NCBI GenBank assembly: GCA_029339195.1
Contig: JAPTJF010000048.1
Span: forward strand, 160,881 to 224,880
From: Micractinium sp. NFX-FRZ
Taxonomy: Eukaryota; Chlorophyta; Trebouxiophyceae; Chlorellales; Chlorellaceae
Length of the DNA stretch: 64,000 nucleotides
Direction of reading: 5' to 3'
Part shown: positions 1 to 63,067 of the stretch, in pieces
Position numbering within the stretch: the stretch's first letter is position 1
Layout: each line of letters starts with the position of its first letter
The notes under the pieces: generated by a model
Seen by the model: the letters and a program-made list of their open reading frames with translations, nothing else
What the model was told of the DNA's origin: nothing
Database searches by the model: none
Made by a program: the position numbers and the translations under genes

Positions 1-1688
1 TGTTCACAGGCAGCCGGTGTCGCTCACAGACGCTGGCATGCCGCTCCCCGGAGTTCCGCACCGGGCCCCTCAATTGCCCGCACTAATGCGTTCCCTGAGG
101 CTTGCCTGAGCAAGCATGTTGGCAGCCGCCTGGGCGGGGCCCAGGGCGCCCACCAGTGCCAGCCCCAGAGTGACGGCGGGGTTCATCTGCCCGCCAGACA
201 GGTGGGAGGTGGCGTAGGCCAGCACTGCGCGGCGAGGGGGAGGAGGGAGGGGAGTTTGTGAGTATGTCTGCGTATGTGTGTGGTTGAGGATGTGGGAGGG
301 GCGTGGAGGCGGGACGAGGTTGCCTCCAAGATGCGCGGGTTGAGCACATGCGAGAGGGAGAGCGCGCCTTGGGGGGGGGGGGGGGCCTGCCACGAGGCGC
401 ACGAGGTGGGGGGTTGCAAAGGGTTGTGTGCGCGCGTGTGTGTGTAAACTAGTATTGTGTATGTGTGTGAGAGGGCTGGCGTTGTACTGCGCATGGACAG
501 GGGCGGGCCAGCCCCAATCACACAGCTGCACAGCAGCTGCCACCCAACCGCCACACATACATTGTGTGTGGACAGCGGTGCAGCCGACCAGACCAGCCAC
601 CATGGCACCCACCCACCCACCTGTGATGGCGAGGCCAAAAGCGAGTGCCGTAATGACGCCCCACCTGGGCAGGGGGCAAGGGAGGGAGGGGGGAGGGCGG
701 CATGCGTGGGTGCAGCGGCGCGGTGGGGCGGCCAGTCGAGTTGCCCTGAGCGGGAGGGCGGGGGGAGGCCCCAGCCAAGACGAGCCAAGCCATGACAGGC
801 CAGGCCACTGGCAGGCCGTGCCAGGCCGAGCCGAGCCAAGGGGTGAGCAAATCGCCAAGGGGACGTGGCGCTGCTCCACTTGTGTGGCGTGCCGGCCTAG
901 GTGCAACAACAAAGCGAAACAATAGGTCCCGGCAGGACCCGCATCTGGCACAGGCGCGCCAGGCAGAGACGCCAGCTAGCCAGCCGGGCGCGACAGCCAG
1001 GCGGCGCTCACGGGGGCGGGGTGGTGAGGTGGGCAGGCACGACGGTGGAAGCATTCCAACCTCCGAATGGCGGACAGTTGCCTTTTTGCTGGCGCGGCAG
1101 CTGGAGGCGCAAGCAAGTGTGCCACAACAGCCAGGCGGCGCTCACGAGGGCAGGATGGTGAGGTTGTCCAGCATGAGGGTGGAAGGGTCCAGCCCAGTCA
1201 CGGTGGAGGAGCGCGGGGTGGAGGCCAGGGTGAAACCTCCGGGGGGGGCTTGCAGGGAGCTGAAGGTCGTGGCTGCTCCAGTGCCAATGTAGCTGCAGAG
1301 GCAGGGGCGGGCGGTGGGCGGGATGGGCGGGCGGGAGGGGCGGGCGGGGCGGCGCACAGCGCCCGCCCGCCCGCCTGCCTTGCTGCCGCCTGCCCTCCTG
1401 CGCCCTCGGACAGCCACCACGGGCCCGCTGGTGACCAGACAGGGCAGTCCAAGGATGTGGCCGCGCCAGGAGAGCCCCTGCCCCCCGGCCACCCAGACGC
1501 CTACTACTGGGTGCCGCCCCTTCCTGTCCCGCTTCTGTTCACCCCATTGCGCCCTCGAACAGCCCACGGCAGCCCCACTAGTGACCACGCAGCGCGGTCC
1601 GAGGGAGGCTGGAGCACCCCGCTCACACAAACAAAGCCGTCGCCATGCATTCTGCCACTGCCGCCTTGAGGCTCACACGAATCGCCAT
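1..1688 (-). CDS. aquaporin (MIP family), 3' part beyond the left edge
   Basis: Membrane channel for water or small solutes. Four exons are visible: 1627-1688, 1146-1292, 621-664 and 106-224; phases agree and the joined frame is open. The start at 1688 gives MAIRVSLKAAVAECMATALF, then VYIGTGAAT, a typical first transmembrane helix. Exons 3-4 join as ALAFGLAIT-VLAYATSHLSG followed by GGQMNPAVTLGL, the first NPA half-pore motif. The second NPA half is not in the window. Exon 4 ends at CTCAG|GCAAGC, which fits a rare GC-AG intron running off the edge; without splicing the frame stops 13 codons later. Intron 2 holds a decayed copy of the end of exon 2. Family is confident; subfamily is not decided. 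Confidence 0.82.
994..1058 (-). repeat. echo of aquaporin exon 2 tail
   Basis: Copy of 1128-1191 (end of exon 2, its GTGAGC donor and the following intron bases) at about 134 bp offset. The intron part cagccaggcggcgctcacg is identical; the coding part has diverged. Confidence 0.8.
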
Positions 1689-1826
1689 CGTGTAGAGTGG
1701 GGCCGGACTAGGGCGCAAAACAGGCAGAGCAAAGTGGTGCGGCGGACGGCACTGGCAGTTTGTCACCTCGTGCGCCAGCTCAGACGGTCCCGCGCTTAGG
1801 TAAGCGTCCAGTACAACAGCCTGGCT

Positions 1827-60469: not shown

Positions 60470-63067
60470 ATGGAGACGATCGTGAGTTGATCCATTGCAG
60501 CTGGCTTGTGCCCGCTGGCTTCTAGCCCAAGGCGCCCGCTCAATCCGCGACTTCTTCCCGCCCCGCAGAATGCGGAGATATTCACGCTAACATACGGCAG
60601 CATGGTGCGGCAACTCATAGCGGACTATGAGGACGTGGAGGAAGTGAACAAGCAGCTGGACAAAATGTGAGCGGCGGGCGGGCGGCGGGTGGTGGCGGCC
60701 GCGGCAGGGGCAGGCGCACGCCAAGCCCATTTGCCGTCTGTCGGGCTCTCCTTGCATCCATATGGTTTTAAAACAGTTATCCCGTCGCTGCCAGCTGCCG
60801 CACTGCCTGAGCGGCGTCCCGCCTGCGCTGCTAGCCTGCCCCAACCGGCCACCCGCCGCCTGCCCTCCTCTGCCCTCTTTATCTCGCGCACGTTGCCCCC
60901 TCGACCTGTTCCCCCTGCAGGGGCTTCGGCGGTGAGCAGCGCCTGACCGCCCAGTTCCCGGCCAGGCCCAACCCTCTGTGTATCTTCTTTCCCCTGCAAC
61001 CCTTTGACCTCCTACCATCTTTCCTGCCGGCCTTTGCTTACTCCTGCTCCCGCAGGGGCTTCTCCATCGGGCAGCGCCTGATCGACGAGTTCCTGGCAAA
61101 GTCCAAGACGCAGCGCTGCTCCGACTTCCGGGAAGCTGCCGAGAAGGTGGCCAAGGCCGGCTTCCGCATGTTCCTCAACACAACAGCAACCGTCACCAAC
61201 TGGAATGCAGAGGGAACAGAGTGCAGCCTGGTGAGGATGCGGGGTGTGTGGGGCAAGGGTGGGGCTGGGAGGCTGGAGTGCACAGGGGCATCAAGCAGCA
61301 GTCCCGCACTTGGGGTGCCGCTGTCAACGTGCACCCTGATACTGATTGCCTCGCACAGCTTTTGTGGGGTGGCAGGGTAGCAGGGAGGCATGCTGCCATA
61401 TTGCAGGAAGGAGCAGGCAGGGTGGCCCATGTGTAGCCTGTGCTGGCGGGGGAAGGAGCAGGCAGGGCGTCACATGTGTGGGCTGTGCTGGCAGGGGAGC
61501 TGTGGGGGCGTGTTTGCGGTCTGTCTTCTCGACTGCTGCAGGGGCCGCCTTCTCCTCCCCTCCCCATCTTCTGGACGTGCTGTTCTGACCCCCCACAACA
61601 AGCAGACTCTGGAGGGTACGGCCGGCGGTGTGGAGCCAACCATGTGTTGGTCACTGTCACCCAGCCTGCCCCTGTGTTGCTCCTTCCCCACCCTGATCCC
61701 CTGCACGTGCTGGAGGGTAACCCTCTGACCGGCTTTGCAATGCACTCCCAACATTCACGTGTTGATCCCACCTCCCTTTGCTTACCCTGTGTGCAGATAC
61801 TGGAGGACACCCCGCCGACCGATCCTGTGGGCCTACCCCCAGCATGCCCTGTGCTTTTCACTGCCCCTTGTCACTCATTCTCTTTACCACCGCTGTTGTG
61901 CAGATCCTGGAGGACAACCCGCTGACCGACTTTGTGGAGCTGCCGGAGGAGCTGTCGCAGCTCAAGTACTCCAACCTGCTGTGCGGCGTCATCCGGGGGG
62001 CGCTCGAAATGGTGGGTGGGCGGGCGGGTGGGCGGGTGGGGGCTGGCAAGCCGGGAGTCCAGCGGGGCTTGGGAGAGGTCTTAAGGTCGCAGAACCCTTC
62101 TCCAACCTGCCCCCCGGAGTCGGGTGGGGGAGCAGCGCTCTTCTCCGAATCGCAGAGTGGGGCGGGCAAACTGGAGCGCCGTAATTTGAGAGCTGCTGCT
62201 GTGTGGATTTGATGCAGCGGGTGCTTTTATTGCTGCGCCTGCGCACCACTCTGGCATGTGGCAGTCTGCTCCTGGTCTGATGGGGTGGGGTGGTGCGAAC
62301 TGTGGCTTGGTGTGTGTACATGCATGCAGCTGGGGGACTTGCTAGAGATTGGTGTTGCAGGCTGCTGGGGGGCTGACCGCCCGACCAGTGGGGGCAGGGT
62401 CTGCCAGGTGCTGGAGGTGGCGCGGGGGCGCTGCTGCTGAGGGGAAGGCGTTGGGGACGGTGTGTTGCTGCAGCTGCGGCTGAGGTCAGGTTGTATGAGA
62501 CGTGCCGCTGTGGGGGGGCGCTTGCTGTTGGGGGGGCGCTGCTGTCAGGGGCAGCGGTGCGCTTTCCACCTCGCCCTCCCACCGCTCCTCACCCGCACTC
62601 TTGTTACTCCTGCCTATACCTCACCCGCCCTCTTGCCACTCCTGCCTATACCTCACCCGCCCTCTTGCCACTCCTGCCTATACCTCACCATGCCTCTTGC
62701 CACCCCTGCCTGCCTGCCCGCAGGTCAACATGGATGTGGAGTGCACCTTTGTGCGGGACGTGCTGCAGGTAGGGGGGTGGCCAGCCCAGGGTGCACGTGG
62801 CCTGCCTGCCTGCCTGCCTCCACGCTGGCGTGCCTAAAGGCCCCCCCCTGGAGTTGTGGGGGTGAGCTTTAACATGAAGCAGCGGCAGGAGGGAACCCCT
62901 GTCAGAAGAGCACCCAAGTGAACAGGTCCCTTCACTCCGGATTGACAAGCCCCCACTCTGCCGCCGCCCGTCAATCATGCGTGGTGCAGGGCGACGATGT
63001 GTACGAGATGCGGCTCAAGCTGCTGTCCAGCAGCACGGAGGCATACCCCTTCAAGGATGACGACTAG
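60470..63067 (+). CDS. TRAPPC3: TRAPP complex subunit 3 (Bet3)
   Basis: Core subunit of the TRAPP complex that activates Rab1/Ypt1 and tethers ER-to-Golgi vesicles. Six exons: 60470-60481, 60569-60666, 61056-61230, 61904-62011, 62724-62768, 62990-63067; 171 residues, near the usual ~180. The family pattern is continuous: [43 protein letters not shown], the conserved acylated-cysteine site RCSDFRE (Cys58), [51 protein letters not shown]. The first exon carries only four codons (METI), so the start is the weakest point. Introns 2 and 3 contain one and three echoes of the following exon heads. Confidence 0.96.
60915..60962 (+). repeat. echo of TRAPPC3 exon 3 head
   Basis: gcaggggcttcggcggtgag then cagcgcctgaccgcccagtt copies the acceptor and first ~40 coding bases of exon 3 (gcaggggcttctccatcggg then cagcgcctgatcgacgagtt) at about 137 bp offset. 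The acceptor is intact. Confidence 0.92.
61598..61840 (+). repeat. three stacked echoes of TRAPPC3 exon 4 head
   Basis: Exon 4 begins cagatcctggaggacaaccc then gctgaccgac. Upstream copies start at about 61794 (cagatactggaggacacccc then gccgaccgat), 61704 (cacgtgctggagggtaaccc then tctgaccggc) and 61603 (cagactctggagggtacggc). Spacings are 107, 90 and 101 bp, and the copies become less like the exon with distance. Confidence 0.93.
62585..62712 (+). repeat. 34-bp minisatellite in TRAPPC3 intron 4
   Basis: Three and a half near-perfect units (ctcttgccactcctgcctat then acctcacccgcc) ending just before the exon 5 acceptor. Confidence 0.92.

Follow-up and report, generated by a model that had tools for sequence, protein, structure and literature searches.

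Copies of exon edges inside the adjoining introns of the green alga Micractinium sp. NFX-FRZ

In the genome of Micractinium sp. NFX-FRZ, many exon edges are found again, usually together with their splice site, as partial copies a short distance inside the adjoining intron. Such copies, called echoes hereafter, had been described in an earlier note, made from the letters alone, on a 64-kb stretch of contig JAPTJF010000048.1 (positions 160881–224880; “the window” hereafter, numbered from its first letter). We confirm this observation and find that it extends beyond the window: a junction-spanning echo is present in the own intron for 88 of 1130 exon edges, whereas 11,300 comparisons with introns of other genes, matched for length, gave none; these are the unrelated pairs that the note had called for. 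Chance and ordinary random duplication fail to explain the pattern; recurrent duplication targeted to the junctions, followed by neutral decay, is the reading we favour, with somewhat better than even confidence.

Occurrence and anatomy of the echoes

The sample comprises the window and 25 other loci of 10 kb, that is, 314 kb or about 0.5% of a 66-Mb genome in 838 contigs. A gene-structure model trained on these same 314 kb gave 75 genes and 587 introns, with AG/GTGAG as the donor, TGCAG/G as the acceptor and median lengths of 118 bases for exons and 244 for introns; the gene models are thus homemade, and at least three echoes were mis-called as exons. The edge test used the 565 introns of 90–1500 bases, 22 of the 587 (<90 bases) being dropped. 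Most tests reported below rely on the 85 of the 88 spanning echoes with an offset (distance between copy and original) of at least 70 bases, and the tests of intronic similarity on 75 echoes.

At a score of at least 20, a copy was found in the own intron for 48 of 565 acceptor edges and 59 of 565 donor edges, against 0.13% and 0.11%, respectively, when the introns came from other genes and were matched for length, and 0.18% and 0% with the reverse complement. A stricter count at score 17 retained 102 edges with an echo, 88 of which cross the exon–intron border (44 donor and 44 acceptor); its control gave 0.04% of non-spanning matches and a single reverse-complement match. The rates in the window (24/234 edges) and in the 25 other loci (61/896) agree. 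Heads of exons are echoed upstream and tails downstream, as had been claimed: the copy lies on the intron side for 102 of 1161 junction anchors and on the exon side for 10 of 1151. With offsets of at least 70, 99 of the 1161 junction anchors have a partner, versus 1.55% of 4000 anchors in intron interiors (partner away from a junction) and, among 3000 intergenic ones, 0.6%. Inverted repeats of the exon edge showed no excess over control in the reverse-complement edge tests across the 314 kb.

A diagonal scan of the 314 kb at score 16, blind to gene models, found that direct repeats cluster at offsets of less than about 250: there are 77–111 per 50 offsets between 16 and 165, and 0–4 per 50 in the classes sampled from 366 up (0–3 from 416 up). 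When the positions of 307 short repeats, a set that includes short-offset minisatellites, were rotated, 105 real repeats spanned a junction versus 82.5 ± 8.8 under the null (maximum 102).

In the window, 29 edges, 25 of them with a spanning copy, have an echo at score 17, to which at least three probable echoes called small exons by the gene finder must be added; looser scoring gave 43, 36 and 29 edges at scores 16, 18 and 20. The initial figure of about 33 edges was, therefore, a fair count. Its offset extremes of about 20 and 156 have to be replaced by 49 and 207. The copies are listed below with their strand, the position of the original, the offset in bases and the identity.

997–1051 (−), donor-edge (exon-tail) echo of 1131–1185; offset 134, identity 0.84
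2422–2450 (−), donor-edge echo of 2544–2572; offset 122, 0.83
4021–4078 (−), weak acceptor-edge echo of 3916–3973; offset 105, 0.76
4730–4766 (−), donor-edge echo of 4808–4844; offset 78, 0.95; second copy ~157 from the edge, array of ~79-bp units
4994–5029 (−), non-spanning exon-head copy of 4901–4936; offset 93, 0.78; ends 7 bases short of the acceptor
10078–10116 (−), acceptor-edge echo of 9975–10013; offset 103; 10082–10114 called exon (duplicated SEEEVVSVVRE)
11066–11107 (−), donor-edge echo of 11273–11314; offset 207 (about twice the usual), 0.80
11926–11974 (−), acceptor-edge echo of 11789–11837; offset 137, 0.88
12531–12590 (−), weak acceptor-edge echo of 12432–12491; offset 99, 0.73
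17470–17518 (+), acceptor-edge echo of 17564–17612; offset 94, 0.79
17821–17856 (+), non-spanning exon-tail copy of 17665–17700; offset 156, 0.81; ends 9 bases short of the donor
18146–18183 (+), non-spanning exon-tail copy of 18002–18039; offset 144, 0.84; ends 9 bases short of the donor
20173–20206 (+), donor-edge echo of 20082–20115; offset 91, 0.82
20383–20420 (+), acceptor-edge echo of 20489–20526; offset 106; 97% of 38 bases, sharp ends, 68 dissimilar bases between
22227–22286 (−), weak acceptor-edge echo of 22108–22167; offset 119, 0.70
22382–22450 (−), donor-edge echo of 22500–22568; offset 118, 0.78
22752–22777 (−), acceptor-edge echo of 22645–22670; offset 107, 0.96; further copy at 218, array 22645–22917
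25537–25580 (+), acceptor-edge echo of 25621–25664; offset 84, 0.84
43209–43234 (+), copy of 43160–43185 in the Rab6 gene; 49-bp tandem repeat; the predicted exon whose edge is copied (43132–43170) is itself absent from the conserved protein, and the copy is perhaps no genuine junction echo
44159–44235 (+), Rab6 exon-tail echo of 44025–44101; offset 134; 44173–44220 called exon, omitted from the aligning protein
44758–44782 (+), acceptor-edge echo of 44846–44870 (gene-10 model, Rab6); offset 88, 0.88
46532–46562 (+), acceptor-edge echo of 46665–46695; offset 133, 0.84
47131–47194 (+), acceptor-edge echo of 47231–47294; offset 100, 0.75
49784–49815 (−), donor-edge echo of 49902–49933; offset 118, 0.88
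50132–50166 (−), acceptor-edge echo of 50014–50048; offset 118, 0.94; intronic half similar too
51484–51532 (−), acceptor-edge echo of 51372–51420; offset 112, 0.84
52250–52277 (−), non-spanning exon-piece copy of 52126–52153; offset 124, 0.82; lowest score, short of the junction
52900–52966 (−), donor-edge echo of 53004–53070; offset 104, 0.80
53219–53280 (−), acceptor-edge echo of 53079–53140; offset 140, 0.80
56900–56947 (+), acceptor-edge echo of 56979–57026; offset 79, 0.79
60908–60971 (+), acceptor-edge echo of 61043–61106 (TRAPPC3 gene); offset 135, 0.78
61790–61837 (+), acceptor-edge echo of 61897–61944 (TRAPPC3 gene); offset 107; 61797–61826 called exon, omitted from the aligning protein

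The offsets of the 88 spanning echoes have a median of 113 bases: 3 are below 70, 75 at 70–150, 3 at 150–200 and 7 at 200–300; they do not follow exon length (r = −0.19). Repeat coverage is highest, at 5–9%, across the junction itself (about 40 bases of exon and 10 of intron), falls to 1–4% just outside, and rises again in the part of the intron that holds the echoes, 60–130 bases from the exon. Many young copies (95–100% identical) are 25–45 bases long, with sharp ends and 40–180 dissimilar bases between copy and original; other echoes form tandem arrays, for example at 4653–4844, 22645–22917 and 50014–50246, and in some arrays the whole unit is similar. The description of the echoes as decayed tandem copies, thus, suits some arrays and not the many short, sharply bounded young copies.

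A second copy exists for 25 of the 85 echoes (control 2.6%). It lies farther in than the best copy in 20 cases and nearer in 5, so that the rule that the nearest copy is the best preserved holds for 20 of the 25 arrays and fails for the rest; 16 of the 20 farther copies sit 61–143 bases past the first. At sites where the first echo differs from the exon, the second echo equals the exon at 46, the first echo at 6 and neither at 2 (18 of the 46 come from a single array); most copies, therefore, seem to derive from the live junction and not from each other.

Random duplication versus targeting of the junction

Random tandem duplication of about 100 bp could occur everywhere, with exon–intron copies staying visible through exon conservation; the earlier note leaned this way, suggesting that junction-spanning copies may be the visible part of a genome-wide process. 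In our simulation, tandem duplications arose at random and then accumulated neutral substitutions (up to 0.3 or 0.5 per site) and simple indels; their exon parts measured 5–59 bases, and the detection was the one applied to the real data. The control for the intronic half of the repeat was the best of 8 in the simulation run (laxer) and the 95th percentile of 30 in the stricter run; the real data were rescored with the laxer one.

Echoes below 0.8 identity agree with the simulation, a recognisable intronic half being found in 55% of real cases vs 38–71% of simulated ones, and this model also accounts for the plain tandem arrays named above and for a gain in intron length equal to the offset (see below). 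At 0.8–0.9 identity the figures are 57% real vs 68–86% simulated, and at 0.9 or more, 65% of 26 real echoes (15/26 with the stricter control) vs 92–99%, with a median intronic-half score of 14 vs 33–40. Altogether, the intronic half is at control level in 41 of 75 echoes, and in 33 of 75 it falls below 95% of age-matched simulated tandem copies. An equal rate per position would moreover leave visible intron-only duplications in 57–71 echo-free introns (expectation over 508 introns), and we observed 7 among the 242 testable echo-free introns of 59 genes (3, 1, 1 and 2 by codon-bias quartile). The placement of the echoes is, as the simulation shows, tied to junctions beyond what visibility explains; the proposal of the earlier note is not borne out, and we consider random duplication rather unlikely as the general explanation.

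The genes differ as well. For the 59 of 73 intron-bearing genes retained in the codon-bias test, introns with an echo number 4/126, 19/141, 13/134 and 40/160 from the lowest to the highest codon-bias quartile, or 0/27, 12/60, 7/52 and 21/71 when only strong splice signals are considered, which shows that the echo process is commoner in codon-biased genes; the clustering of echoes by gene exceeds all 2000 permutations. Leaving the exon free to change in the simulation lowers detection only from 0.548 to 0.393 (about 30% loss), far from this 8-fold gradient between genes. In the window, the VWA, METTL-like copy 2 with glycosyltransferase, and ENT models have no echo in 30 introns, in keeping with the genes initially listed as echo-free; no echo occurs either in the 5 introns of METTL-like copy 1 or in the 2 of the ankyrin gene. 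The shortfall against the simulation, the quartile counts and these 0/30 introns together indicate that the process, or its survival, is junction-tied and gene-dependent.

Several observations weigh against the targeting of junctions. The intronic half remains similar in 34 of 75 echoes (55–65% with the laxer control), so plain tandem duplication explains a share of them. Intron-only repeats are present in 20 of 71 echo-bearing introns; they are probably array copies, and counting all 20 as independent would bring the intron-only total to 27, below the 57–71 expected. Introns with echoes carry stronger splice signals (donor 3.54 vs 2.93, acceptor 4.74 vs 4.01), for which reason the quality of our own gene models may feed the codon-bias gradient; the lowest quartile has a donor score of 2.60 vs 3.08–3.19 in the others, and the gradient is not monotonic, the second quartile standing above the third. 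A link to transcription level is at best tentative, since MCM genes, which are not known for high expression, do carry echoes: in a pilot on four small conserved-gene loci, too few to separate conservation from expression, three MCM genes had six echoes in 5 of 12 introns (4/12 spanning), and one chaperonin gene had two in 11 introns, neither spanning. Two further features are not accounted for by this reading: repeat coverage also rises to 2–6% at 80–120 bases inside long exons over all 314 kb, and the spacers (the DNA between copy and original) have a G+C content of 0.596 vs 0.633 (p = 7e-4). Finally, the duplication events are reconstructed from the sequence of a single genome.

Fate of the copies and origin of the spacers

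Echoes decay like non-coding DNA. Their mismatches by codon position are 149/992, 167/997 and 183/1000 (15.0, 16.8 and 18.3%), and their splice dinucleotides (AG kept in 33/43, GT in 32/42) are no better kept than the neighbouring bases, in agreement with the decay proposed initially. The Rab6 and TRAPPC3 proteins, both identified by alignment to solved structures, align to these end to end and gap-free when the suspected echo pieces are omitted; a border-spanning duplication of about 100 bp thus seems, as had been supposed, to have been tolerated there with the outer splice site still in use. Given the even codon-position mismatches, the lack of any special retention of splice sites and these gap-free proteins, the echoes are unlikely to be exons under constraint, and ready-made alternative splice sites, also suggested at first, have no sign of use in codon positions, splice dinucleotides or offset modulo 3 (27/33/28).

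Selection on the echoes as alternative or decoy splice sites would suit their strict tie to junctions and their abundance in codon-biased genes. Besides the decay just described, it is at odds with the reading frames, as the extension is open in 35 of 85 echoes but open as well as in frame in only 13, and with the lack of RNA structure in 75 spacers (mean z −0.08 vs −0.01 in control); we regard it as very improbable.

Echo-bearing introns are longer, with a median of 361 bases vs 227.5 for echo-free ones, as had been anticipated. Subtracting the offset restores the echo-free distribution (Kolmogorov–Smirnov p 0.93; within the same genes, 222 vs 236, p 0.55), and subtracting only the short copy does not (within the same genes, 302 vs 274 for introns with room for an echo, p 0.0098); the net gain is, hence, the repeat spacing, as in a tandem duplication.

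The direct repeats around slightly AT-rich, dissimilar spacers (G+C content of 0.545 in nine young echoes lacking intronic similarity) resemble long target-site duplications, such as a mobile element (introner, miniature inverted-repeat transposable element or fragment of a long interspersed nuclear element) inserted at splice junctions could leave. An insert recurring at many loci was not found: the 85 spacers searched against the 314 kb gave 78 non-self matches at E ≤ 0.01, of which the 39 shown are scattered and short with no common family; a whole-genome search with three introns that carry young echoes found no further copy; and terminal inverted repeats in the spacers are not above shuffled sequence (4.5 vs 3.9). 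We rejected this origin, to which we give the lowest probability of all. A local template within ±2.5 kb was not found either for the spacers of the 26 young echoes with identity of at least 0.9 (25.9 vs 28.7 in control; reverse strand 21.7 vs 24.5), and the search for an ancestral state in close paralogues of two gene regions gave only 56–69-base matches elsewhere.

The main rival for the sharp islands is gene conversion from the exon: tandem duplications would be old, and short conversion tracts from the constrained exon would keep the edge alike while the intronic parts drift. This would explain islands of 25–45 bases at 95–100% identity amid dissimilar sequence, why intron–intron duplications are lacking and why some genes show a stronger signal. 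It would also need a finely set conversion rate; the aligned exon parts have about 17% mismatches on average, and nearer copies are usually the better ones; as an account of the whole pattern, such concerted evolution seems distinctly unlikely to us.

Under recurrent junction-targeted duplication, one event would copy about 15–60 bases of an exon edge with its splice site and place the copy some 80–150 bases inside the intron, which would grow by about the copy spacing, as the length matching supports. The outer site would stay in use and the protein unchanged, as supported for Rab6 and TRAPPC3 and suggested elsewhere by the gene models, and the inner copy, being useless, would decay neutrally, in line with the absence of codon and splice-dinucleotide constraint. 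Later events would recopy the live junction and push older copies inward, giving arrays with steps of about 100 bases whose copies would mostly carry private mutations, as 15 arrays suggest. The lesion would most likely be a staggered break or template slippage at junctions that are transcribed and spliced. Part of these lesions may be repaired as plain tandem copies, and others may leave about 60–130 bases of dissimilar DNA between the two edge copies; both forms would follow from a staggered break close to the junction that is filled in either with extra DNA or without it. A more specific version is a tentative possibility, which we hold well short of even confidence: a process coupled to splicing or transcription may duplicate live junctions through breaks or template switches guided by chromatin, R-loops or the spliceosome, leaving the copy some 110 bases into the intron, in many cases along with newly added filler DNA, so that junctions would be the main growth points of introns.

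Known cases, individual genes and other repeats

Short intragenic duplications are reportedly frequent in the surveys of internal gene duplication by Gao and Lynch in 2009, as cited elsewhere; they are not known to report junction-locked echoes at a preferred offset. Among the titles and abstract openings of the open-licence literature, no genome-wide report of pervasive junction-locked copies at a preferred offset could be recognised. The closest published case found there is one potato gene, the RdRp gene, in which a tandem duplication crosses an intron–exon boundary, presented by its authors as a single novel case (PMC4974935). As here, the intron end, the acceptor and the exon start are copied and an exonic piece turns intronic; that single recent case made a new intron, whereas in Micractinium about 8% of edges are affected, donors as much as acceptors, existing introns are lengthened, and there are arrays, a preferred offset and an often dissimilar spacer.

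Intron gain by tandem duplication of AGGT-containing exon pieces, covered together with break repair in a review (PMC3443670), likewise involves a short tandem duplication, new splice sites and an unchanged protein; here, the piece spans an existing junction and no new intron arises inside a former exon, the echoes sitting in existing introns beside the copied junction. Intron gain by double-strand-break repair (PMC3443670; PMC4202315 for Daphnia) shares direct repeats flanking sequence of unknown source, and differs in that our repeats measure 25–60 bases and lie at existing junctions with no intron gained. Introner elements (PMC9860276) are a further example of mass intron change in one lineage; unlike them, the spacers form no dispersed family within the searches described above.

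If junctions are indeed mutational hot spots for duplications of about 110 bases, introns would grow from their edges. Relatives of Chlamydomonas have conspicuously long introns, the advantage of such lengths being called unknown in PMC8226300, and edge growth could be relevant to the long introns found in compact green-algal genomes. Junction echoes would also offer a way to test directly if changes in DNA are driven by splicing or by chromatin at junctions, and with some 8% of edges affected, new events could be caught by resequencing strains.

Regarding the genes of the window, the long open reading frames carry VWA, ankyrin, RNase H N-terminal and dioxygenase domains and a nucleoside-transporter match below the cut-off, 5 of the 10 frames being without a match; the names METTL-like, GT64, amidohydrolase and aquaporin are assumed by us, from recognition or from the earlier note only. 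The two METTL-like paralogues (14391–16550 and 32789–37552), both echo-free, share 52% identity over 213 aa; the second model continues into a GT64-like region, so that two genes may have been merged in it. In other loci, an MCM gene (L033:1–2001) has echoes at 3 of its 4 introns, one of them non-spanning, and gene 2 of L025, which we take to be aspartate kinase/homoserine dehydrogenase-like, has them in 8 of 17 introns.

Dense overlapping repeats, with offsets of 68–91 and multiples, fill an intron of an MCM helicase gene (L035:1635–1865), and another intron (L019:7408–7967) has, by eye, about five degenerate copies of the intron end and exon head, with inner steps of about 65 bases and the last 116 from the exon. 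The spacer of an acceptor echo at L007:3573–3950 contains degenerate CCCTAAA-like motifs, presumably telomere-like. The window also has an intronic, long, CCTGC-rich low-complexity stretch (35264–35495), about three head-to-tail copies of 59 bp that span and pass the end of the gene-10 model (47437–47627), and, in a region not in the gene models (63501–63860), a 181-bp tandem duplication with 92% identity.

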